DNA from: an uncultured Spirochaetales bacterium
Lineage (GTDB): Bacteria; Spirochaetota; Spirochaetia; Sphaerochaetales; Sphaerochaetaceae
NCBI GenBank assembly: GCA_949285785.1
Contig: CASEAG010000031.1
Coordinates: 62,001 to 126,000 of the forward strand
Reading direction: 5' to 3'
DNA: 64,000 nt
The position numbers were made by a program, and so were the translations under genes. Numbering within the stretch: position 1 is the stretch's first letter; every line of letters starts with the position of its first letter. Positions 1,327-32,182 of this stretch are shown in pieces. Below the pieces are notes generated by a model that saw only the letters and a program-made list of their open reading frames with translations, did no database searches and had not been told where the DNA came from.

Positions 1327-2007
1327 TCATTCGAAGACCTTCCTGAAGCCCAGTCCGTCGACGAAGTCGAAACGTCTGTCGAACCAGCTGGTGCACCGTC
1401 CGATCAGCCAGCCGTTGAGCAGGGCGCAGAACACCGTTCCCAGCTTGACGCCCTCGAAGCGGCCGAAGCCGATGAAGATGAACGACATGGCGATCGCCAC
1501 GAGACAGCTGCAGCAGTCGTAGACGGTCTTGGTCCTGCTTATGTTCCAGCCGTACTTCGAGGACAGCTCCTTCACGAACAGCTCGTATGCCTCGGGCGAG
1601 ATGTAGGTCTTGAACAGGAGCGACACCCCGGTTGCACACACCAGCATGCCGACGAGGTAGAATGCCGTTCTGGCGGCGATTCCCTCACCGGGGACCATGG
1701 CCACCAGGGCGATCATCAAATCCAGCACGGTGCCGTATATGAATGCGGTGATGAAGGAGAACAGATATCTTCGGCTGAAGTGGTGCATCACAAGCGCCAG
1801 GACGATGATCAGCAGAGCCTGGAGGCAGTATTCGGCCATCCCGAACGAGAACCAGCCCAGATACTGCGATACCTTCAGATGGACCAGATAGGCCGGGGCG
1901 ACCACCATCGACATCCCATAGTCGGCCCTTTCCATCAACGCCGTACCGAGTGCGAGCGCCACAATGCCGAAGGCATATGCCGCCTCCGTGAAGAATCTCC
2001 TCTTCAT
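1327..2007 (-). CDS. YczE/YitT-like (DUF6198-type) integral membrane protein
   Basis: A 226-residue protein with about five hydrophobic segments (near residues 8-25, 60-78, 82-105, 110-130 and 165-185). The N-terminus carries LGTALMERADYGMSM, resembling the start of YczE/YyaS/YitT-family proteins, where a G-x-x-L-x-x-x-A-x-x-G pattern is usual. An AGGAGG ribosome-binding site lies 8 nt before the ATG. Function is unknown in the family; some members sit near transporters or regulators. It faces the Lon gene tail to tail, with about 100 bases between the stops and no clear terminator there. The membrane location is well supported, the family moderately. Confidence 0.7.
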   Translation of the reverse strand: MKRRFFTEAAYAFGIVALALGTALMERADYGMSMVVAPAYLVHLKVSQYLGWFSFGMAEYCLQALLIIVLALVMHHFSRRYLFSFITAFIYGTVLDLMIALVAMVPGEGIAARTAFYLVGMLVCATGVSLLFKTYISPEAYELFVKELSSKYGWNISRTKTVYDCCSCLVAIAMSFIFIGFGRFEGVKLGTVFCALLNGWLIGRCTSWFDRRFDFVDGLGFRKVFE

Positions 2008-2186
2008 CGACGGATCCTCCTGAAAACTGACGTTTGGTACAGAAACGGCAAAAGATGAGATTCACAGGTGGACGGAACGTGCACTCCGGATGGTTCCAGC
2101 CTGCTGTTCCACCATGACTGGAAGATAGCATGCAAGGCTGGATCGAATCCATATCGATCCGGGCTTCTGATGGTCAGAACAGGTCA

Positions 2187-2454
2187 CTATGGGTTCCTTG
2201 TCCTGATCAGTTCAAGAATGAGCCTATCATATGCAATCCGGTATATCAGAAGCCAGTCAGGTTCTATATGACACTCTCTCATGCCCTTGTAGTTTCGTGA
2301 ATTCTGCAATTGATGATCCCGGAATCTTTCGGGAAGAGGTTTCTCCTCACATAGAAGGGTGATCACCTCTTCCAGGCTTCTCCGGCCTGCAGTCTCTCTT
2401 TACGGCGAGTTTGTAATCCTTCTAGAACTGACCCGTGAATTCCGGCTTAAGCAT
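2187..2454 (-). pseudogene. YafQ-type RelE-superfamily toxin, broken by a stop and a frameshift
   Basis: Translation starts at an ATG overlapping the relB stop (as in dinJ-yafQ pairs) and reads MLKPEFTGQF, then hits TAG at 2422-2424 as codon 11. It continues KDYKLAVKRDCRPEK, then an extra base near 2376 shifts the frame. The rest reads LEEVITLLCEEKPLP, RDHQLQNSRNYKGM, RECHIEPDWLLIYRI and ends ELIRTRNP before a stop at 2187-2189. Restoring both lesions gives about 88 residues, the normal YafQ length, with the His, His and Asp residues of the mRNase site (DHQ, ECHIEPDW) still present. The toxin is almost certainly inactive. A sequencing error could explain one lesion but hardly both. Confidence 0.85.
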
Positions 2455-2722
2455 CGAGAGCCTCCATCAGCTCCTTCACGCTGTTGTATGGGCCATACAT
2501 GTCTCTGCCGTTTTCTGCGTCATCCATTGCCTTGTATTTGATCTCATTGGGTTCATCCAACTTGACTTCAAATGGAAGTCCATGGCACCTGAGAGCCTGA
2601 CGATAGAAAATGCCGGTTGCCGTGCTCAGATCCAGTCCTAAAGATCTGAAGAGAGTAGAAGCCTCTTCTTTGAGCTGTGGCTCTATACGAATCGTAAGAT
2701 TGTGGCTCTTCTGCGTCTGCAT
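2447..2722 (-). CDS. relB: RelB/DinJ-family antitoxin
   Basis: A 91-residue protein starting MQTQKSHNLTIRIEPQLKEEA. The N-terminal part has the ribbon-helix-helix pattern of RelB/DinJ (NLTIRIEPQLK, then LGLDLSTATGIFYRQALR), and the C-terminus would wrap the toxin. The start was chosen at 2722 because AGGAGA lies 7-12 nt upstream; an ATG 60 nt further out has no support. It overlaps the broken yafQ-type toxin gene by 8 nt. An inverted repeat CAATAT...ATATTG (2741-2746 and 2761-2766) lies just upstream and is a candidate autoregulatory operator. With the toxin dead, this is an orphan antitoxin that could still neutralise related toxins elsewhere. Confidence 0.85.
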   Translation of the reverse strand: MQTQKSHNLTIRIEPQLKEEASTLFRSLGLDLSTATGIFYRQALRCHGLPFEVKLDEPNEIKYKAMDDAENGRDMYGPYNSVKELMEALDA

Positions 2723-2886
2723 ACCATTCTCTCCTGAGCACAATATGGCATTGTTTATGGATATTGCAAATGCAATGCACATAAAAGTACGCTTCGATGT
2801 TTATTGAGAAATCGTAATTCTTGATAATCGATGATGACTTTCCTATTCAGGTAGATGGAGATGGGAACGCCTTAAGAGTCAACCAT

Positions 2887-3111
2887 TCAGTCCATATCAT
2901 ATTCGACTACGCAGGTTCCGCTATCCAGCTTCTTTGCTCTTGTCACAATCTTGTCGATATCCTGCATGACCTCGTCGGTATAATATTTCTCTCCGCATTG
3001 AACGCATTCCAGACAAGGAACATTCTTTATGATGATTGTATAATCACCAAGTGCTGCTACATATGTTGTTGTAGACTCCTTGAGTTCTTTTCCGCGGCAA
3101 TATGGGCACAC
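2887..3111 (-). CDS. YgiT-type zinc-ribbon protein (MqsA-like antitoxin N-domain)
   Basis: About 74 residues with two CxxC knuckles (CPYC near the start and CVQC around residue 36) and the family pattern GDYTIIIKNVPCLEC followed by GEKYYTDEV. The GTG at 3111 was chosen because AAGGAGG sits 7 nt upstream and family members typically start M-x-CPxC. An upstream ATG at 3129 has no ribosome-binding site. Related proteins are antitoxins, normally paired with an MqsR or DUF4258 toxin, or with an HTH fused at the C-terminus. Here the HTH is absent and no DUF4258 gene is seen; the gene directly follows RelE in the same operon. Its role as third member of this module is inferred. Confidence 0.75.
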   Translation of the reverse strand: MCPYCRGKELKESTTTYVAALGDYTIIIKNVPCLECVQCGEKYYTDEVMQDIDKIVTRAKKLDSGTCVVEYDMD

Positions 3112-3139
3112 TTTGGTTCCTCCTTCCAATGAAGTGCCA

Positions 3140-3394
3140 TCAATAGATATCCTTTCTGTGGCCTATCTTGAGTACGGAGATCAAAATCCTCTCATCCTGA
3201 ATCTCGCAGATCACCCAGTAATCGCCGACACGATAGCGCCATAGGCCACGCATGTTCTCGACAAGAGCTTTTCCTCGGCTTCTGGGATTTCCAAGAAGAG
3301 AGACTTCATCCATGTAATCCAGAATCCTCTTCTGCATGGTCTTGTCGAGTTTCCTGAGCTGTTTTCTCGCCGTTTCGGTGTACTCGATTCTCAT
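3140..3394 (-). CDS. relE: RelE/ParE-superfamily toxin
   Basis: An 84-residue protein, MRIEYTETARKQLRKLD at the start and VLKIGHRKDIY at the end, both hallmarks of RelE/StbE toxins. The middle has LWRYRVGDYWVICEI, with the conserved Arg of the mRNA-cleaving fold. RelE toxins cut mRNA in the ribosomal A site. Its ATG overlaps the stop of the upstream RHH antitoxin gene by 4 nt (ATGA), so the two are translationally coupled, in the usual antitoxin-toxin order. No lesion is visible, so this toxin is probably functional. Confidence 0.88.
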   Translation of the reverse strand: MRIEYTETARKQLRKLDKTMQKRILDYMDEVSLLGNPRSRGKALVENMRGLWRYRVGDYWVICEIQDERILISVLKIGHRKDIY

Positions 3395-3624
3395 AGACCA
3401 AGCTCTTTCCTGATCTCATCGGACGAGTAGGTCTTTTCCTTGCCTGCCCTGACACGTTCCCTTATGTCTACAGCATCGTATATGTCTTCTATATCCGAGA
3501 GGTAATCCTCCAGAAGAGTATTGTAGTAGAAACCAGAGCTGCGTTTTGTCCTCCTGGCCAATTCGTCGACTCTCGCTTTGAGTTCCGGTGTCGTTCTGAA
3601 TGTGACGGTTGCAGTCAATGCCAT
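3391..3624 (-). CDS. Ribbon-helix-helix (RelB/CopG-like) antitoxin
   Basis: A 77-residue protein starting MALTATVTFRTTPELKARVDELA, a classic beta strand plus helix RHH DNA-binding start, followed by an acidic tail (YLSDIEDIYDAVDIRERV) that would clamp the toxin. AGGAG lies 8 nt before the chosen ATG; an ATG 48 nt upstream lies inside the probable operator. It forms an operon with the overlapping relE and the zinc-ribbon gene. The palindrome at 3641-3668 just upstream is the likely binding site for autoregulation. Confidence 0.86.
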   Translation of the reverse strand: MALTATVTFRTTPELKARVDELARRTKRSSGFYYNTLLEDYLSDIEDIYDAVDIRERVRAGKEKTYSSDEIRKELGL

Positions 3625-3640
3625 GATCCCATCTCCTGAA

Positions 3641-3668
3641 TACAATGTAATACATAGTGTGCATTGTA
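3641..3668 (-). promoter_or_regulatory. Candidate RHH operator/promoter of the TA operon
   Basis: TACAATG at 3641-3647 and its reverse complement CATTGTA at 3662-3668 are separated by 14 bases and lie 17 bases before the antitoxin ATG. On the minus strand, TACAAT at 3663-3668 could also serve as the -10 element, so bound antitoxin would block RNA polymerase. The operator role is inferred. Confidence 0.5.
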
Positions 3669-3776
3669 TCAAGAAAGCTAATGTTCAAAAGTTTCGAAAA
3701 GCCGGATCCGGACGTCTTGCGGGTGCTGTCGTTAGCCGGTTCAAAAGCGCTACTAAGCTTCCTGAATTAAAGAAAA

Positions 3777-3797
3777 CCAGCCGGTTTTCCCGACTGG
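3777..3797 (-). terminator. Rho-independent terminator after tRNA-Ile
   Basis: On the minus strand CCAGTCGG, loop GAAAA, then CCGGCTGG forms an 8-bp stem with one G-T pair, followed by TTTTCTTT. It lies 27 bases past the 3' end of the tRNA and would also separate it from the toxin-antitoxin operon. Confidence 0.8.
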
Positions 3798-3824
3798 CTT
3801 CCGTATCAATGATGTGGCGTTGTA

Positions 3825-3897
3825 TGGGCCCAGGTGGATTTGAACCACCGACCAACGGGTTATGAGTCCGCGGCTCTGACCGCTGAGCTATAGGCCC
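3825..3897 (-). tRNA. tRNA-Ile(CAU), to be lysidine-modified
   Basis: A complete cloverleaf: acceptor GGGCCTA pairs with TGGGCCC (one G-T), D arm AGCTCAGCGGTCAGAGC, anticodon loop CTCATAA, T arm GGTGGTTCAAATCCACC, discriminator A. The CCA end is not encoded. The anticodon CAT alone would mean Met, but the body (CTATAGCTCAG, ACTCATAA, TTGGTCGGTGG) matches the minor isoleucine tRNA whose C34 is converted to lysidine by TilS. One A-C mismatch sits at the top of the anticodon stem. An elongator Met tRNA is the alternative. Confidence 0.85.
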
Positions 3898-3970
3898 GAT
3901 ATGACAGACAGGATTCTAGCCTGAAAGCATCATCAGATGCAAGAAGGCCGAATCCCGCTTCTGCCGATGC

Positions 3971-4534
3971 TTACTTGTTGACCCTCTCCAGGTACTCCTT
4001 CGTCTCCGTGTTGACGCGGATCTTCTCGCCCTGCTTGATGAAGATGGGCACTCTGACGCGAAGGCCGGTCTCCGTGGTGACGTACTTGGTGGCACCCTGG
4101 ACGGTGTCGCCCTTGACGGCCTCTTCGGCCTCGGCGACGGTGAAGACGATCTTTGCCGGGATGAGGATGTCCAGCAGCTGGTCCTCCCAGAACGTCGCCC
4201 TGTAGGTCTCGCCTTCCTTCATGAAGTACTCGTAGTCGGGGAAGTTGGCCATCGGAACCTCCATCTGGTCGAACGTCTCGACGTTCATGAAGGAGAAGTT
4301 GGTTCCATCATTGTAAAGATACTGGATGTCCCTGTCCTCGACCGTGATGTCCTCGGCGTTGTCTTGGCTCTTCATGGTCTCGGAGAGGACCTGGCCGGTG
4401 GAGGGGCTCTTCAGCTTGAGCCTGACGAATGCAGAACCCTTGCCGGGGTTGACGAACTCCCTCTCGATGCAAATGAAGGGCTGTCCCTTGATGAGGAGGG
4501 CGGTACCCTTGTCGATCTGACCTGCTTTGATCAT
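3971..4534 (-). CDS. efp: Translation elongation factor P
   Basis: A 187-residue protein of standard EF-P length. Domain I (KOW-like) holds the modification loop FVNPGKGSAFVRL; Lys32 in PGKG corresponds to the lysine that receives beta-lysine in E. coli. Domain II spans roughly residues 65-125, and the C-terminal OB domain ends with LRVRVPIFIKQGEKI, the EF-P signature region. EF-P relieves ribosome stalling at polyproline stretches. The modifying enzyme EpmA is encoded just upstream on the same strand, which supports lysylation. AGAGGT precedes the ATG by 7 nt. A separate promoter can be read between epmA and efp. Confidence 0.97.
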   Translation of the reverse strand: MIKAGQIDKGTALLIKGQPFICIEREFVNPGKGSAFVRLKLKSPSTGQVLSETMKSQDNAEDITVEDRDIQYLYNDGTNFSFMNVETFDQMEVPMANFPDYEYFMKEGETYRATFWEDQLLDILIPAKIVFTVAEAEEAVKGDTVQGATKYVTTETGLRVRVPIFIKQGEKIRVNTETKEYLERVNK

Positions 4535-25292: not shown

Positions 25293-25319
25293 GGTGCACA
25301 TTCTTCTTTTCTGGACAAT

Positions 25320-25347
25320 ACAGGACCACCGGCCATGGTGGTCCTGT
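25320..25347 (+). terminator. Rho-independent terminator after trpS
   Basis: ACAGGACCACC and GGTGGTCCTGT form a perfect stem around GGCCAT and are followed by GATTTACTT. It closes the ileS-trpS block and marks the left edge of the AT-rich island. Confidence 0.8.
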
Positions 25348-25352
25348 GATTT

Positions 25353-25456: not shown

Positions 25457-25484
25457 TTGACATAAGTTTGGCCGGGTCTATACT
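25457..25484 (+). promoter_or_regulatory. Promoter of island unit 1
   Basis: TTGACA (25457-25462), 16-base spacer, TATACT (25479-25484): a near-consensus promoter. The -35 overlaps a half site of the upstream palindrome. Confidence 0.7.
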
Positions 25485-25577
25485 TTTTCTGCGATAAAAT
25501 GCTGCTGGTGCTTTCGAGCTGCCAGATGCAGGTGCTGAACATTCAGCTCTTGACTGGATGCCGGATTAGGAGAGTGG

Positions 25578-25691
25578 ATGAAGGACGTCGTCGTGGCCCA
25601 TTTCATTAAGGCAGATGTCTGCAGTTGCGTTCCGCTGTGGCGGAATGCCAGACTTTTCTGTGCATCGCATCTCAATGGAGCCTGCCTATGA
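25578..25691 (+). CDS. Possible 37-residue leader peptide
   Basis: An open frame with AGGAG 5-6 nt before its ATG, beginning MKDVVVAHFIKADVCSC and ending exactly over the next start (ATGA at 25688-25691). It carries four cysteines and has no similarity I recognise. The good ribosome-binding site and stop/start overlap suggest a translated leader coupled to the next gene. Such a short frame could also be chance. Confidence 0.3.
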   Translation: MKDVVVAHFIKADVCSCVPLWRNARLFCASHLNGACL

Positions 25692-26269
25692 GGAAGGTCC
25701 TGATTGCACTTGTGCTGTTCATTGCGACTATTGCCATTGCGTACTCTGCCGACGAGGCGAACTGGTATTATTGGAAAACAGGGAGTATGGAGATAGCGGC
25801 GAACAAGGCCATTGATCCTTCTGTCTCCATAACTCCTATCAGCAGTTCGGAATCTGGTGAAGAAGGTATCCCTGTAGAGCATACTGCGGCAAATATACAG
25901 CCTGATGTTGAAATTTCATCAGCCAGAAAGATAGCCACATGGAAGCTGGATTCCAGCTCAACTGACATAATAATTGACATTGATGCCCAATATCTGACGA
26001 ATGAGGCTTATCCCGGAGTCGAGATAGATTATCTTATTGGATTCCAGTACACGATAGATGGCAAGACAGAGACACTGGAGGTAGGGCCGGAAAAACCATT
26101 GGACAATTCACAGCCGTTCTCTTCTGAAAATGATCATACGGTTCATTTCGAAAACCAACCGATTCGATTCAAGCTGACTGAGAAAGGACTTTCCACGGCC
26201 AACACTGCAGTTGCTGATATGTATACTGCAGATGTGACGATCACCGTGGAAGCAGGAGGCGGGGTATGA
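25688..26269 (+). CDS. Secreted beta-rich protein, island unit 1 (subunit-like)
   Basis: A 193-residue protein with a clear Sec signal peptide (MRKVLIALVLFIATIAIAYS, cut before ADEANWYYW) and GGAG upstream. The mature part alternates polar and hydrophobic residues as in an immunoglobulin-like sandwich and ends YTADVTITVEA, a strand pattern shared with the other small proteins of the island. ARKIATWKL (79-87) matches GRKIAYWTI in the protein encoded at 29074. AT-rich codons set it apart from the flanking housekeeping genes. I recognise no named family; a pilin-like or surface-layer subunit is an inference. Confidence 0.6.
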   Translation: MRKVLIALVLFIATIAIAYSADEANWYYWKTGSMEIAANKAIDPSVSITPISSSESGEEGIPVEHTAANIQPDVEISSARKIATWKLDSSSTDIIIDIDAQYLTNEAYPGVEIDYLIGFQYTIDGKTETLEVGPEKPLDNSQPFSSENDHTVHFENQPIRFKLTEKGLSTANTAVADMYTADVTITVEAGGGV

Positions 26270-27507
26270 AAAAGCTGATCTTCTGTCTTCTGGTCATGGT
26301 GTTATGCAGTACGGTGGCTTTTGCAGGCATTGTCATTTCCAATACTGGAAAGACATTTGACCTGTCGTCTGTGTATCCGGAAGTCGGCGAGCTGACCAGC
26401 GAGGATGAAGTTGAATATGATGCTCGTCAGGTAATAGGCACGATTACAATTGATGACACGACCGACAAGACTGACCTTGAACTGGATTTCAGCAATATGC
26501 AATTTGTGTTTCCCGGACAGGGGGAGTCAACTAGGTCGTATGATATCAATCTTGTCTACAAACAGAAGACGACATTCAGAGGACAAGAGACCAGCAGTTT
26601 CAGACAAAGCGAGATAATACATGATGTCAATGGCAAGCATACTTTCAACATTCCAGCTACAGAAGGGGAAAATGTATCTACGATTGAAGATCTTGAATTG
26701 TCCTGGACGCAGAAATTCTACATCTCTCTTGTATGGTTGTTGGAAGGATACTGCTTTACTGATGAGTACTGGGGAACGGGTATTTTGCATGATGGCCTGC
26801 AACATTTCATAGAAGATTATGCTAGTGCCTATGTTTCGGCTGTCCAGATCGATATTGTTCTTGTGCTTCCTGAACTGACTGCAGAAGAGGAATACAATAT
26901 GGTCAATTCCGACAACGGTTATGTGGGAACATGTAAGCTGTCGACGGGAGAGGAGATCAGGTTTTACGGCAGTTATAAAGGCAAGCCTGAGAATGTAGAA
27001 CTCTCGCTTTCAGTGGCACAGAATGACAATTCTCGGGCAATTGATCTTGATGATACAAGTGTTCAGCCAGATTCTTCCGGACTGGATATCGGAACTTACG
27101 AATATGTTGTGACATACCCGGCAGGATACGATGGCAGTCATGCCTTTTATATCTTCGCCTCCTCATCTGATGATCCGACGACAGCCGGTAAAGCATTCAC
27201 GCTGATACACGAAAACGGCACCAATGCACTGGAATATGAAGTCGGGCTTTCTGGAGGTGGAAGCTCGGAGAAATGGTTCAGTGGCACTGATTCTGTGGCT
27301 ATCGGATCTGGTGTGACCAATGATGAAGCAAAGCTGTTGGCATCTGACAACAATTACAGCAGCTATGCCGTATCTGATAATGGACGTACTACTCGAGGTT
27401 ATGGCGGCTCAATCCTGTTCAGGTTGACGGATGCACAAATGAATGAAGATCCGCTGGCGGGGGACTATAGTTCGACAATCTATTTCCATGTGCTGTCATG
27501 TGAGTGA
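26266..27507 (+). CDS. Large secreted two-part protein, island unit 1 (tip-like)
   Basis: A 413-residue protein with signal peptide MKKLIFCLLVMVLCSTVAFA, its start overlapping the preceding gene (ATGA). It appears to have two beta-rich halves. The first ends near IDIVLVLPELTAEEE. The second contains IFASSSDDPTTAGKAFTL and ends DYSSTIYFHVLSC. Both landmarks recur in the protein encoded at 29814 (DVLLVIPEKV; MFVSSSDNPDASGKPFAL; YYSADVYFHVSC), so the two are paralogues. A subunit gene followed by a double-length gene recalls pilus operons with a tip adhesin. No chaperone or usher is present. Function is unknown. Confidence 0.6.
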   Translation: MKKLIFCLLVMVLCSTVAFAGIVISNTGKTFDLSSVYPEVGELTSEDEVEYDARQVIGTITIDDTTDKTDLELDFSNMQFVFPGQGESTRSYDINLVYKQKTTFRGQETSSFRQSEIIHDVNGKHTFNIPATEGENVSTIEDLELSWTQKFYISLVWLLEGYCFTDEYWGTGILHDGLQHFIEDYASAYVSAVQIDIVLVLPELTAEEEYNMVNSDNGYVGTCKLSTGEEIRFYGSYKGKPENVELSLSVAQNDNSRAIDLDDTSVQPDSSGLDIGTYEYVVTYPAGYDGSHAFYIFASSSDDPTTAGKAFTLIHENGTNALEYEVGLSGGGSSEKWFSGTDSVAIGSGVTNDEAKLLASDNNYSSYAVSDNGRTTRGYGGSILFRLTDAQMNEDPLAGDYSSTIYFHVLSCE

Positions 27508-27561
27508 AATGATGGTTGTATGGTCTTGCACCTGATTTTCCTTTGGGTAAATACGCTTTGT

Positions 27562-27576
27562 TCTTATGTCATGACA
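27562..27576. repeat. Palindrome copy upstream of island unit 2
   Basis: TCTTATGTCATGACA shares the core CTTATGTCAT with the reverse complement of the palindrome at 25353-25367. It lies 103 bases before the unit-2 -35; the first copy lies 104 bases before its own. Confidence 0.45.
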
Positions 27577-27664
27577 ATTGTTTGCAAATACTGGATCCCT
27601 ATGCGATTCTTTAAAGATTTCTTTGTATTATAGGCATTTTGTCATTATGTCGCTAGCAAAACTG

Positions 27665-27692
27665 TTGACATATGTTACCTCAGTCTTAAAAT
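27665..27692 (+). promoter_or_regulatory. Promoter of island unit 2
   Basis: TTGACA (27665-27670), 16-base spacer, TAAAAT (27687-27692). The context ACTGTTGACATATGTT differs at one position from that of the unit-1 promoter (ACTGTTGACATAAGTT), so both are probably controlled alike. Confidence 0.65.
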
Positions 27693-27777
27693 ATTCATGC
27701 AAAGGTGAGATGTCGACCTGATCGATAGGTCTATTGATATGATTGGTAATCTGGATGAGGCCAGGAGGGTTGTTGTG

Positions 27778-28323
27778 GTGTTGAGAAAACTAAGTTTTGC
27801 CATTCTACTTGCCCTATGTGCCATTCTGCCTGTTGGTGCCGATTACAATACTATTCTGAAGAACATTTCCTTCGATTATGTAATTGAAATCTACAATGGA
27901 GTCACTGAGGTCAATTTCGTTGATCGAGATGGAAATCTCATCAATGAAAACAGCGAGCCTGTGTCACTCCAGGTTGCTGGTCAGGAAGGCTATGGATATC
28001 CTCAATATGGCATTCGGTTCCGTTCAAATGAAAATGGGTCGTATTCGCTGAAAATTAAGTTGAATCCGCTGAAGACAACAACGGATCAGTCCATCACATA
28101 TGATGTACAGATTCAGCAGAGGTCTCCATCTGCAATCAAGTTGACAAAAACCATTGAAAATCAAAGTGTTGAAGACCTGTTCGAGCAATCTATTGTCGTT
28201 TCTGACACTTCTATGATTGAGCGTGAATATGATGTCTACTACAAAGTCGGTGTAGAAGATATGAACAGATTTGCAGGGGGCACAGAGTTCTCCTCAGATG
28301 TAACGGTGTATATTGAGAACTGA
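27778..28323 (+). CDS. Secreted protein, island unit 2, first gene
   Basis: About 181 residues. The signal peptide LRKLSFAILLALCAILPVGA begins just after a strong AGGAGG, so GTG 27778 (9-nt spacing) or TTG 27781 is taken as the start. The ATG at 27739 would place charged residues in front of the signal. The mature part (DYNTILKNISFDYVIEIYNG...) is beta-rich and ends TEFSSDVTVYIEN, the same closing-strand pattern as its neighbours. No recognised domain. It leads a four-gene run of secreted proteins. Confidence 0.55.
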   Translation: MLRKLSFAILLALCAILPVGADYNTILKNISFDYVIEIYNGVTEVNFVDRDGNLINENSEPVSLQVAGQEGYGYPQYGIRFRSNENGSYSLKIKLNPLKTTTDQSITYDVQIQQRSPSAIKLTKTIENQSVEDLFEQSIVVSDTSMIEREYDVYYKVGVEDMNRFAGGTEFSSDVTVYIEN

Positions 28324-28324
28324 A

Positions 28325-29077
28325 ATGAAAAAAATCATTCTCCATGTCCTTCTCATTTGTCTTGTTTCTTCAACCTTGTGTGCAGCGAAGAACGGAATAG
28401 GCCGAGAGCTGTCCAGAAGCAGCAGCACATCATTTGAGTTCCAAGCGATTAAAAACGGCCCAATAGTTGATCAGAATTGGGAGTACAAGATTGAAGTGAC
28501 TGATCTGACAGGAAGTGGTAGAATGATTGCTGGTGGAGAGGAACTAAACGTATCAGCAGATATTCTAAGCACCAAGGATTGGTGTGTTTTGTTTGAGATC
28601 AGCTATTCATCGAATTCCCTCAAGTATCCGATACGATTTAATGTCATGCTTTCCATATTCACGAATGGTGATGATGTGATTCCTACTGATGGCAAGATCG
28701 AATCAAAATATGGATTCGAAGAAGATGGATACTACTATTTTGGACCTTGGGGTGTATCAGAGGACAGCTTCAAGGAAAAGTATTTTGGTCAAGGTAGTTC
28801 TATTTCTGATGGAGAACAACAAAAAGGATATGGCGATAGTAGCGACAAAAACCATTTGATATTCAATCCATTGGAAATAAGATCGTCTGAGGATGATGAA
28901 AAGATTACTTTTTTCTATGGCGAGACGTATAATGCTTTGTTCAAATTCAATGCAGTAGTTTCGATTCGACTTGATGAAGATGCTCCACATACAACAGATG
29001 GTCATCTTGACCAGACCGTGTTATCTGGTGGCGAATATAGAATGAATGTCCTGCTGACAGTGGAGGCGGAAGCATGA
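28325..29077 (+). CDS. Secreted protein, island unit 2, second gene
   Basis: A 250-residue protein with signal peptide MKKIILHVLLICLVSSTLCA. The ATG lies 1 base after the preceding stop. Mature sequence features include NWEYKIEVTDLTGSGRMIAGG and LNVSADILST, and it ends GEYRMNVLLTVEAEA, matching the C-terminal strand of the other small island proteins. It is strongly AT-rich with low-GC codons. Not recognised; probably a secreted or surface subunit. Confidence 0.55.
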   Translation: MKKIILHVLLICLVSSTLCAAKNGIGRELSRSSSTSFEFQAIKNGPIVDQNWEYKIEVTDLTGSGRMIAGGEELNVSADILSTKDWCVLFEISYSSNSLKYPIRFNVMLSIFTNGDDVIPTDGKIESKYGFEEDGYYYFGPWGVSEDSFKEKYFGQGSSISDGEQQKGYGDSSDKNHLIFNPLEIRSSEDDEKITFFYGETYNALFKFNAVVSIRLDEDAPHTTDGHLDQTVLSGGEYRMNVLLTVEAEA

Positions 29078-29817
29078 GAAAGAAATTGTTGCTCATATTG
29101 GTATCAGGCTTTGTCCTGATCAGTCCGCTTTTCTGTGATGATGCGATTGCTGTTATAAAGACCAAAGTACCGACTCCAATAATGCGTTCGATGTCGATAG
29201 GCGGTATGGTGGACAACCAGGTATCCGTCAGCGTAAATGTCATCTCTGGAGGCGTCGGATCAGCTGAAGGCAGTCCGTTTGATTTGGCTGGCGATGATGT
29301 CATGTCAGTATCTAATACTGGCGGATGGAATATGGAGGTCGGACGTAAAATCGCCTATTGGACAATAGCCGCAAGAACCTTGCCTGTTTCTGTGACTATA
29401 ACTGCAGATGTCTTGCAGCAACAGGTTGTATACGATAATGAGGTGAAAATCGCAAAGGTCCCATATATCCTGCGTTTTTCATACCGATATGCAAAGTACG
29501 ATGAGATAGGGAAATATGTTGGTGATGAAGTTGGTGCCTTTTTTATCATTTCCCAGGATTTTGAAGCATTGGAATCTGATGGCAATCCTGCTGTTGTTCC
29601 AGAACTTGTGAATACGGTAAATGCAGATAGAGTTGTTGAAGGCAAGTTTACATTCAACAAGACGGATGATATAGATCAGTTCTTCGTCGTTGAAAATGGT
29701 GAGGTTCGAGTATTCATCCCCGAATATGCGTGGGAAGTGGTTAAGAATGATGACTATCGTGTCCCACCTGGTACCTATAACGCTGTCGTCAAGATTTCGG
29801 TGGAGGCTGACGAATGA
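29074..29817 (+). CDS. Secreted beta-rich protein, island unit 2, third gene
   Basis: A 247-residue protein with signal peptide MRKKLLLILVSGFVLISPLF, coupled to its neighbours by ATGA overlaps at both ends. GRKIAYWTI (90-98) is followed by an alternating-strand stretch PVSVTITADVL, paralleling the protein encoded at 25688. The end, PGTYNAVVKISVEADE, has the Gly-x-Tyr turn plus final strand seen in many fimbrial and coat subunits. Family unknown. Confidence 0.57.
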   Translation: MRKKLLLILVSGFVLISPLFCDDAIAVIKTKVPTPIMRSMSIGGMVDNQVSVSVNVISGGVGSAEGSPFDLAGDDVMSVSNTGGWNMEVGRKIAYWTIAARTLPVSVTITADVLQQQVVYDNEVKIAKVPYILRFSYRYAKYDEIGKYVGDEVGAFFIISQDFEALESDGNPAVVPELVNTVNADRVVEGKFTFNKTDDIDQFFVVENGEVRVFIPEYAWEVVKNDDYRVPPGTYNAVVKISVEADE

Positions 29818-30989
29818 AAAAGGCATGTCTTCTGTTTGTTTTAATTCTGTTATGCTCTGCACTGGCTCTTTTTGCTGATACCGTGTACTTCCTGCCATAT
29901 CAAGCCTGCTTCAACGTGGATCTGAAGAATGGGAATTATGACGGATCGTCGAACGGAATATTCCAGGATGCGAATCACACTCATGGGGATTATGTCAATG
30001 AGGATCTAGTAGGTTTGATTGGTGTTGCAACTCCGACTTCAAACAGGACTTATACCATAGATTTTGATATCTCTGACAATGGCTGGTTTTACACCTCTCA
30101 ATCTGATCCTTCGCTCAGAATTCCATTCGGAATCGATCTGGTGATCAGGTATAACGACCATAATGGAATGTCGGAATATGATACTACGTATGGTGATAAG
30201 GTATATCACCTAGGATATAATGACAATAAAAACAATGTCGGCGATGCGACACCGATAACCGTAAATGTTGGAGGCGACTGGCATTCGTTCTGGTGTGATG
30301 TATTGCTAGTGATTCCCGAAAAGGTGAGAGCCGATCTTCAGAGCACAGGAGCTGCGGTTGTAGGGAATGCGAATGATTATACTGCAGCCTTCACTATCAG
30401 AATGACTGATGGGAATAACAATGTCCATTCATATCCAATCAATATCAACGGCTATTACGAAATAAAGTCGGAAGGTACAGGCAATATTATCTTCAATGTC
30501 GTTCCGAATGCACAGGCAACAAGTCTGGATCTTTCCGATAGCATGAAAAATGTAGAAATCGAGATAGGTTCATACTATTATTCAACGGAGGCATTGAGGG
30601 GAACTTATCCTGATCCCGGTTATTCGCCTTTCAAGATGTTTGTATCGTCATCGGATAATCCTGATGCTTCTGGCAAGCCATTTGCTCTTCGGCATGTAAA
30701 TGACATCGAGGAAAAGCTTCCATCCATCCCATTTGAAATCAGGTTGGATGGTATGGTAGATGATAGTAACAATATCGTTTGGTATGACGGAACTGGATCG
30801 AGCAGGGGTGAACAATATACCCAAGGCGGTTATCTGTATACCACAACGCGAGAGAACGGTGTTCAGGCTGTGACTTTCTATGATAAAGGGGATATTTGGT
30901 TCAAAATCAAAAATGATGCGGATTTCTCACAGCTGACTGGTGGATATTATTCTGCTGACGTGTATTTCCATGTGAGTTGCAACTGGTGA
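29814..30989 (+). CDS. Large secreted two-part protein, island unit 2 (tip-like)
   Basis: A 391-residue protein with signal peptide MKKACLLFVLILLCSALALF. It is a paralogue of the protein encoded at 26266: the first half ends DVLLVIPEKVRADLQ, and the second has MFVSSSDNPDASGKPFALRH and ends GGYYSADVYFHVSCNW. It closes the four-gene unit just as its paralogue closes the two-gene unit. Aromatic and Asn/Asp-rich loops would suit a binding surface, but no ligand can be named. No clear terminator was found after it. Confidence 0.6.
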   Translation: MKKACLLFVLILLCSALALFADTVYFLPYQACFNVDLKNGNYDGSSNGIFQDANHTHGDYVNEDLVGLIGVATPTSNRTYTIDFDISDNGWFYTSQSDPSLRIPFGIDLVIRYNDHNGMSEYDTTYGDKVYHLGYNDNKNNVGDATPITVNVGGDWHSFWCDVLLVIPEKVRADLQSTGAAVVGNANDYTAAFTIRMTDGNNNVHSYPININGYYEIKSEGTGNIIFNVVPNAQATSLDLSDSMKNVEIEIGSYYYSTEALRGTYPDPGYSPFKMFVSSSDNPDASGKPFALRHVNDIEEKLPSIPFEIRLDGMVDDSNNIVWYDGTGSSRGEQYTQGGYLYTTTRENGVQAVTFYDKGDIWFKIKNDADFSQLTGGYYSADVYFHVSCNW

Positions 30990-31177
30990 TTTTCAGCGAT
31001 ATTGATGCCGACAACAATCTTACTGTTTTTAAGCCTCCTGAACAGAACCATTCTTCCTACTCAGATGTGTGGTGATTATTGTTCTTATGGATGTCCCAGC
31101 ATTCAGTTTGTGCCGAATTTACAATGTCATAATAGTGGAAGGGCAGGGTGATTATTGACGATTCCACCAGGTGGCCC

Positions 31178-31217
31178 GGTCATGCCAATCTAGGTGATTT
31201 CCTCCCATGGCATGACC
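31178..31217 (-). terminator. Inverted repeat after the Rpn gene, possible terminator
   Basis: GGTCATGCC (31178-31186) and GGCATGACC (31209-31217) are perfect inverted repeats with a 22-base loop, 13 bases past the stop of the minus-strand gene. There is no T-run, so it may instead be a protein site or mRNA-stabilising hairpin. Confidence 0.35.
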
Positions 31218-31229
31218 AGACCACTCATA

Positions 31230-32036
31230 CTATTTGACTGCGTACTTCGCCGCGGCCTCGCTGACCTGTTCGGCACTAAGTCCGGTCATCTTGAGAATCT
31301 CCTCGAGTGAATATCTACCTTCCTTCAGCATCATCGCCGCAAGTTCGGTCTTCCCTTCAACTTTTCCCTCGGTCTTGGCTTCGTTGTAAAGCCTTTCCAT
31401 CTCATCGCTCATATCTCTTGCTCCCTCCTCTCCCATAAGCACATCGAGAGTGCTCCTGACCTCTTCGTTGAACGCCCTTTCAGGGTCGCTCTGGTTCATG
31501 TCAGCCATCAGACGTCCGATGGCATCGTCACTCCTGTACTCTCCGTTGACGAAGATTATACGTCCTCCCTCTTCCAGCTGTCTTCCATCATCGCTCTTGA
31601 AGCTGTAGCTGTACATCGCCTTGCCGCTCATCTCCACATCGCCGTCGCAGATGAAGATGACGCACCTGCGGGGAAGGTCGGCATAGCCATGGCTTCCGGC
31701 ATCCAGACTGTGCACCGTGAGCATCGCCTCGTAGTAGGCGGCCCTGCGGGGAAGGTCGTCGAAGCGGCCCTTCTGGACCTCCACGTCATACATGTTACCA
31801 CAGCTGTCGAAGCAAAGTGCATCGAACACGACTCCCCTGTGTCCTATGCCGGGGACCTTCTCCTGGCATCGCACGTCCGTCACCACCAGGTCATCCTGCG
31901 AGAGGACGGTGCGTATGATCAGTTCGGCGAGGGCCATGGAGTGTCTGATGGCGACGGTGAAGGGCACGTCGTCCATCAGCGTCGGATGGGCGATCACCCG
32001 CCGCTTCATTTCCTCGAATATAATTCTGCTATTCAT
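31230..32036 (-). CDS. Rpn-family PD-(D/E)XK nuclease/putative transposase
   Basis: A 268-residue protein. The nuclease core is seen as VVFDALCFDSCGNMYDVEVQ, with Asp and the E-x-Q of the PD-(D/E)XK fold, followed by LPRRAAYYEAML. The C-terminus has a charged helix (EAKTEGKVEGKTE) and a short LKEGRYSLEEILKMTGLSAE repeat typical of the family. Family members (RpnA-E) promote RecA-independent recombination. The start at 32036 was chosen for GGAGG 8 nt upstream. It sits between the AT-rich island and housekeeping genes, but there are no terminal inverted repeats to make it an insertion sequence. Confidence 0.85.
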   Translation of the reverse strand: MNSRIIFEEMKRRVIAHPTLMDDVPFTVAIRHSMALAELIIRTVLSQDDLVVTDVRCQEKVPGIGHRGVVFDALCFDSCGNMYDVEVQKGRFDDLPRRAAYYEAMLTVHSLDAGSHGYADLPRRCVIFICDGDVEMSGKAMYSYSFKSDDGRQLEEGGRIIFVNGEYRSDDAIGRLMADMNQSDPERAFNEEVRSTLDVLMGEEGARDMSDEMERLYNEAKTEGKVEGKTELAAMMLKEGRYSLEEILKMTGLSAEQVSEAAAKYAVK

Positions 32037-32182
32037 TCCGGACACCTCCGATGAAGTCCTCATGACTCTCATATCCAGGAATGATGGATTCTGTGCACAT
32101 CACATCCGGATAGCCGATACGATGTGTTCATGGACAGCACCTTGAGTGCCGTGAAAGGCCATCCTGCCGCGTCTTTTCCCGA

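Follow-up and report, generated by a model that had tools for sequence, protein, structure and literature searches.

What do six consecutive AT-rich genes for secreted beta-rich proteins encode, and which machine assembles their products when no assembly genes stand beside them? The island in question lies in a window of 64,000 nucleotides (contig CASEAG010000031.1, positions 62,001 to 126,000, assembly GCA_949285785.1) from an uncultured Spirochaetales bacterium of the family Sphaerochaetaceae, on contig C31 of a 2.05-Mb draft genome (G000). The six genes very probably specify subunits of a chaperone-usher fibre on the cell surface, and the genes for its machine lie unlinked to them in the same genome. 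The cassette keeps a fixed site next to trpS and a conserved promoter, but between sister species its content has been replaced as one block.

On the plus strand, C1-D1 is followed by A-B-C2-D2 (Table 1). The initial annotation described six same-strand, signal-peptide-bearing, beta-rich and AT-rich genes in two units, each closed by a double-length protein. This arrangement is present at 25,688-30,989 and each unit has its own promoter; the span first given (25578-30989) ended correctly and began slightly early. Judged by eye, all six N-termini combine a basic n-region with a hydrophobic core and are Sec-like. GC content at third codon positions (GC3) is 0.38-0.46 in the six genes versus 0.85-0.88 in adjoining trpS and ileS. 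The ATGA coupling ascribed to the whole run holds for C1-D1, B-C2 and C2-D2 but not for A-B, spaced by 1 nt, or D1-A, spaced by 267 nt containing a promoter-like site; the C-terminal strand motif stands out in C1, B and C2 and is looser in A and D. By profile match and alignments C1 and C2 are members of one family, and D1 and D2 are homologous across their second half with 27% identity. Searches of the genome found one copy each of A and B and two each of C and D, all within the island. The promoter TTGACATA(A/T)GTT stands in front of each of the two units, which have in common the extended motif CTGTTGACATA(A/T)GTT with TTGACA 16 bp from the -10 box.

Table 1. Features of the island and its probable assembly machine (positions are those of the window unless a locus is named)
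Feature	Position	Strand	Description
Unit 1 promoter	25457..25484	+	sigma-70-like, TTGACA-16-TATACT
C1 (P0001)	25688..26269	+	193 aa; single-domain pilin-like subunit, C family; C profile match 2.3e-36 and alignments
D1 (P0002)	26266..27507	+	413 aa; two-domain, tip-adhesin-like, D family
Unit 2 promoter	27665..27692	+	sigma-70-like, TTGACA-16-TAAAAT
A (P0003)	27775..28323	+	182 aa; single-domain subunit, A family; GTG start behind AGGAGG
B (P0004)	28325..29077	+	250 aa; single-domain subunit, B family
C2 (P0005)	29074..29817	+	247 aa; predicted disordered N-terminal extension and beta-sandwich ending on the last strand; AlphaFold m07f7503eaf44
D2 (P0006)	29814..30989	+	391 aa; predicted pilin-like domains 20-217 and 222-391, tip-adhesin-like order; AlphaFold m22979c9d0f2a
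Right edge of swapped cassette	31167..31331	.	DNA identity to G011 resumes
Chaperone-usher / V-type ATPase neighbourhood	L126:9025-13924, L127-L141	same strand	ATPase names by eye

Pfam and NCBIfam scans of the six proteins gave no real match. SCPU (PF05229), which does match subunits in other Spirochaetia, had no match in them up to E 5, and the C, D and usher profiles retrieved nothing from PDB sequences. AlphaFold models were considered for C2 and D2 (mean pLDDT 78). D2 is modelled as two pilin-like domains, each matched separately, with no long free N-terminal tail. Its best Foldseek match was a CfaE-CfaB fusion (E 3.5e-7, prob 1.00). The best solved match of the N-domain was self-complemented CsuA/B (Z 9.4, 136 aligned, 3.0 Å; CfaE, Z 9.1), and the C-domain matched LpfD (Z 6.8), PapE (6.3), PapG (6.0) and FimH (5.7). 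The C2 model has an N-terminal extension (residues about 21-48), disordered and of low confidence, which is a candidate donor strand, and a sandwich matching CfaE (Z 5.7) and Caf1 (Z 5.2-5.4), aligned to the very end of Caf1. D2 C-domain alignments reach the ends of FimH, PapG and PapE. As these alignments reach the last residues of C2 and D2 and of pilins without a final strand, the C2 and D2 folds are likely incomplete and without that strand.

Unpolymerised secreted beta-sandwich proteins, such as binding proteins or enzyme accessories, would fit the weak carbohydrate-binding and sialidase-associated beta-domain matches in the fold lists and the want of a pilin family by sequence. However, pilin-domain matches head the D fold list, the C-terminal strand is conserved, and sequence scans and fold searches found no enzyme or toxin family, the outcome named beforehand as contrary to a fimbria-like system. 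With chaperone-usher linkage in relatives and co-occurrence (below) also against it, this alternative is highly improbable.

The initial annotation was right that the short subunits are fimbria-like and that no chaperone or usher lies nearby, and it proposed a different or distant assembly machine. The machine is distant but not of a different kind, being a divergent chaperone-usher pair. Chaperone and usher profiles, built from proteins of the array-type relatives described below and run against the family genomes, found one PapD-like chaperone (P0012; G000:C22:22252-22986, L126:8252-8995) and one usher (P0013; about G000:C22:23052-26354, L126:9040-12363) in G000. They lie on another contig, C22, at least about 84 kb from the cassette. 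P0012 scores 32.2 bits against PF00345 (Pfam curated cut-off 23) and P0013 32.4 bits against PF00577 (cut-off 27.1). Among solved structures, EcpB is the closest to the chaperone in sequence, FimC giving no useful match to the chaperone profile, and the usher N-domain and barrel motifs are collinear with FimD (hhalign E 0.004, at a low hhalign probability of 8%). Chaperone profile matches occur in 105 of 139 family genomes and the pair in 15 of the 22 genera. In most Sphaerochaetaceae, V-type ATPase genes (by eye) follow the pair immediately and on the same strand, for no obvious functional reason, and they follow the pair on C22 too.

In relatives, C and D genes are linked to such a pair. About thirty loci of the Candidatus Ornithospirochaeta type, together with G001 and a second system in G011, both genomes being of the window's genus, hold a chaperone-usher-subunit-C-D array with further subunit-like genes, the chaperone (~245 aa) and usher (~1,090-1,380 aa) preceding the secreted subunit-like genes.

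The genes also occur together across genomes. Profile searches detected D in 60/139 and C in 61/139 family genomes. Within the window's genus the usher is present in 13/13 genomes with D, and the 3/3 genomes without D (G003, G005 and G006) are without C, chaperone and usher as well. Among the 75 well-assembled family genomes, the chaperone is found in 36/37 with D versus 27/38 without, in counts made by hand that ignore relatedness. G001 has only an array-type usher and only an array-type D, and G011 has both types of each.

Further candidate subunits were seen near these pairs. Ornithospirochaeta-type post-usher arrays (L050-L052, L064, L065) contain secreted proteins of ~180-230 aa, many matching none of A-D, and represent a large subunit repertoire beyond these families. 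At L189, L190, L192 and L203, which are of Sphaerochaeta type and without D, a divergent gene upstream of the chaperone meets a crude subunit pattern and may be another substrate of the same usher.

Several observations weigh against a chaperone-usher fibre. In the window's genus the subunit genes are unlinked from chaperone and usher; clustering of such genes is usual in chaperone-usher systems, not defining. None of the subunits matches a pilin family at the sequence level. The C2 fold matches are middling, with CanA cannulae (Z 7.1) above Caf1, and once signal peptides are removed the hhalign matches that link the A, B, C and D profiles are weak and short. One draft genome with D (G147) shows neither chaperone nor usher, and many of the genome records are draft metagenome assemblies. 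Because 27 well-assembled genomes have the chaperone but no detectable D, the pair is likely to serve other substrates as well. An hhalign kinship among the A-D families that at first looked strong was discarded, since much of the signal came from signal peptides, as a control with the chaperone revealed; without them, weak and mostly short C-terminal A-D matches remain above column shuffles.

Some of these points would suit usher-free assembly of a donor-strand fibre or tube, on the pattern of archaeal cannulae and threads, the chaperone-usher pair serving other substrates. The highest structural matches of the C2 model are CanA cannulae (Z 6.1-7.1), the Sulfolobus 0406 filament also matches (Z 5.0), no chaperone or usher is linked within the window, and many Sphaerochaetaceae have the pair without D. 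We nevertheless consider usher-free assembly very unlikely, given that about thirty loci have C and D immediately after chaperone and usher, that co-absence in the genus is perfect and that both ends of D match tip and pilin domains of chaperone-usher systems.

In the chaperone-usher fibre that we favor, A-D would be substrates of the G000 usher. A, B and C would enter the periplasm via Sec and be held by the chaperone with a fold minus the last strand, and the usher would join them by donor-strand exchange, the fold of each subunit being completed by the N-terminal extension of its neighbour. D, modelled with two pilin-like domains and no free tail, may serve as tip or adhesin. With cassette swapping, a cell could alter its fibre and still retain promoter, chaperone and usher. 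As a sub-case of this reading, the product may be an amorphous coat or a short adhesive fibrillum of Caf1 or Psa type and not a rod. This is a substantial possibility, if somewhat short of even: four different subunits in equal gene number leave no obvious major pilin, the fold matches include Caf1, PsaA and MyfA, and the sequence divergence is very high, as an exposed antigen would be expected to show; gene order and domain sizes, however, do not discriminate thin fibrilla from rods.

The A-B-C-D order is kept across the genus, far beyond chance. A module follows trpS directly in G002, G004 (a tandem pair), G007, G009, G011, G012 and G014; in G015 it is at another site. In G005 the trpS site is intact and trpS faces the next conserved gene with no module in between. 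Closely similar promoter sites are found upstream of the modules in G002, G009, G011, G012 and G014. In the window, a strong terminator-like hairpin of 13 pairs (25319-25348), shortly 3' of trpS, separates that gene from the cassette promoter.

The block replacement is seen in G011, the sister of G000 by the ileS tree (support 100/98), with a TrpS protein 100% identical to that of G000. The DNA of the two is 89% identical up to window position 25,486, two bases past the -10 box; from there to 31,167, about 180 bp after the last gene, nothing is alignable, and identity then resumes at 83-85%. D2 and the G011 D are 28% identical, and an approximately unbiased (AU) test rejects the D proteins of G000 and G011 as sisters (p 0.0002). 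D1 groups with one D each of G004 and G007 (support 100/99). Between G000 and G011 the chaperones are 85% and the ushers 72% identical. Since flanks, chaperone and usher are kept and the cassettes are dissimilar, the subunits were replaced as a block while promoter and machine stayed. Adjoining the swapped cassette on the reverse strand is an Rpn/PD-(D/E)XK transposase-associated-like gene (31230-32072, by eye), which occupies the same place in G011.

Horizontal acquisition had been put forward for the island, and a recently acquired foreign element would be in line with the GC3 contrast between the island and its surroundings and with the different cassette at the same site in sister G011. 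Such an origin is unlikely, however: site, order and GC offset (-0.10 to -0.18) are the same in all eight genomes measured, the promoter is conserved, and the nearest D relatives found are from the same genus. A constant deficit, with module GC 0.10-0.18 below the flanks in 8/8 genomes, points to exchange among relatives and argues against one foreign acquisition. With the trpS site used in most sister genomes examined, acquisition as originally proposed does not stand; horizontal exchange within the group does, as cassette content has been exchanged between relatives.

The ushers of this family depart from the canonical layout, in which a signal peptide leads directly into the N-domain of a protein of about 800-850 residues. 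All 67 full-length family ushers scanned carry 1-7 N-terminal hydrophobic segments by hydropathy alone, with one segment in 34/67 and two to seven in 33/67, the latter being the array type. The N-domain start could be placed in most, not all, of the 67, and in these an acidic linker of 110-435 residues, rich in D/E/P/S/T/N/G/Q, lies between the last hydrophobic segment and the N-domain; an outlier of 919 was a false motif match and was disregarded. In other Spirochaetia families, usher genes of 786-840 aa start without hydrophobic segments and linker (two longer frames left out). FimD is not known to have a long linker or membrane anchor.

From sequence, an inner-membrane anchor is the simplest reading for the multi-segment clade, and the single segment of the other clade, which includes G000, may be a cleaved signal peptide. 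We advance only tentatively, as a rather doubtful proposal, that Sphaerochaetaceae ushers are tied to the inner membrane by the long disordered linker, making one machine across both membranes, fed from a cassette-swapping expression site behind a fixed promoter. An extended, possibly doubly anchored usher poses the question of whether coupling of an outer-membrane pore to the inner membrane is possible.

Most known chaperone-usher fibres are from Proteobacteria; the divergent branch seen here is a core feature in a family of gut spirochaetes. Archaic (sigma, spore-coat-U-type) pili, such as Csu of Acinetobacter and the SCPU operons of other Spirochaetia, likewise have a PapD-like chaperone, an usher, short pilins and a double-length protein. 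In other Spirochaetia these are textbook operons with an SCPU pilin, a PapD_N chaperone, an usher of about 800 aa and a double-length protein. The CsuA/B match of the D N-domain recalls that group; the island differs in that SCPU matches none of its six proteins and its subunits are unlinked from chaperone and usher, and the usher is about 250-300 residues longer, the extra part being N-terminal. For both CFA/I-type (alpha) fimbriae (CfaA-E) and the E. coli common pilus (Ecp), a single operon encodes the system, and one pilin is the main subunit. D resembles the CfaE tip protein and CfaE-CfaB fusion of the former and the chaperone is nearest EcpB of the latter among solved relatives, with marginal sequence similarity in both cases. 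Type 1 and P pili (Fim, Pap) share with this system an usher collinear with FimD and pilin domains of FimH, PapG and PapE that are like the D C-domain.

Current family models fail to recognize the A-D subunit genes, whose products would be called hypothetical proteins in an annotation. It is unusual for surface fibres to be varied in this manner, with a single conserved machine kept separate from subunit cassettes that are exchanged behind a fixed promoter. Our search of open-licence papers found nothing relevant on Sphaerochaeta chaperones, ushers or fimbriae, or on ushers with a transmembrane anchor. A survey of the fimbrial usher family (TC 1.B.11) lists Spirochaetae among the phyla with ushers and gives a mean length of 830 aa (PMC4827864), so that an usher in this phylum is not new; the excerpt of that survey consulted makes no mention of extended ushers, distant cassettes or swapping.

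Elsewhere in the window, another low-GC stretch (2000-4000, GC 0.45-0.48) has otherwise few long frames and contains a short RelB/DinJ-like antitoxin gene (2447-2782, by eye).

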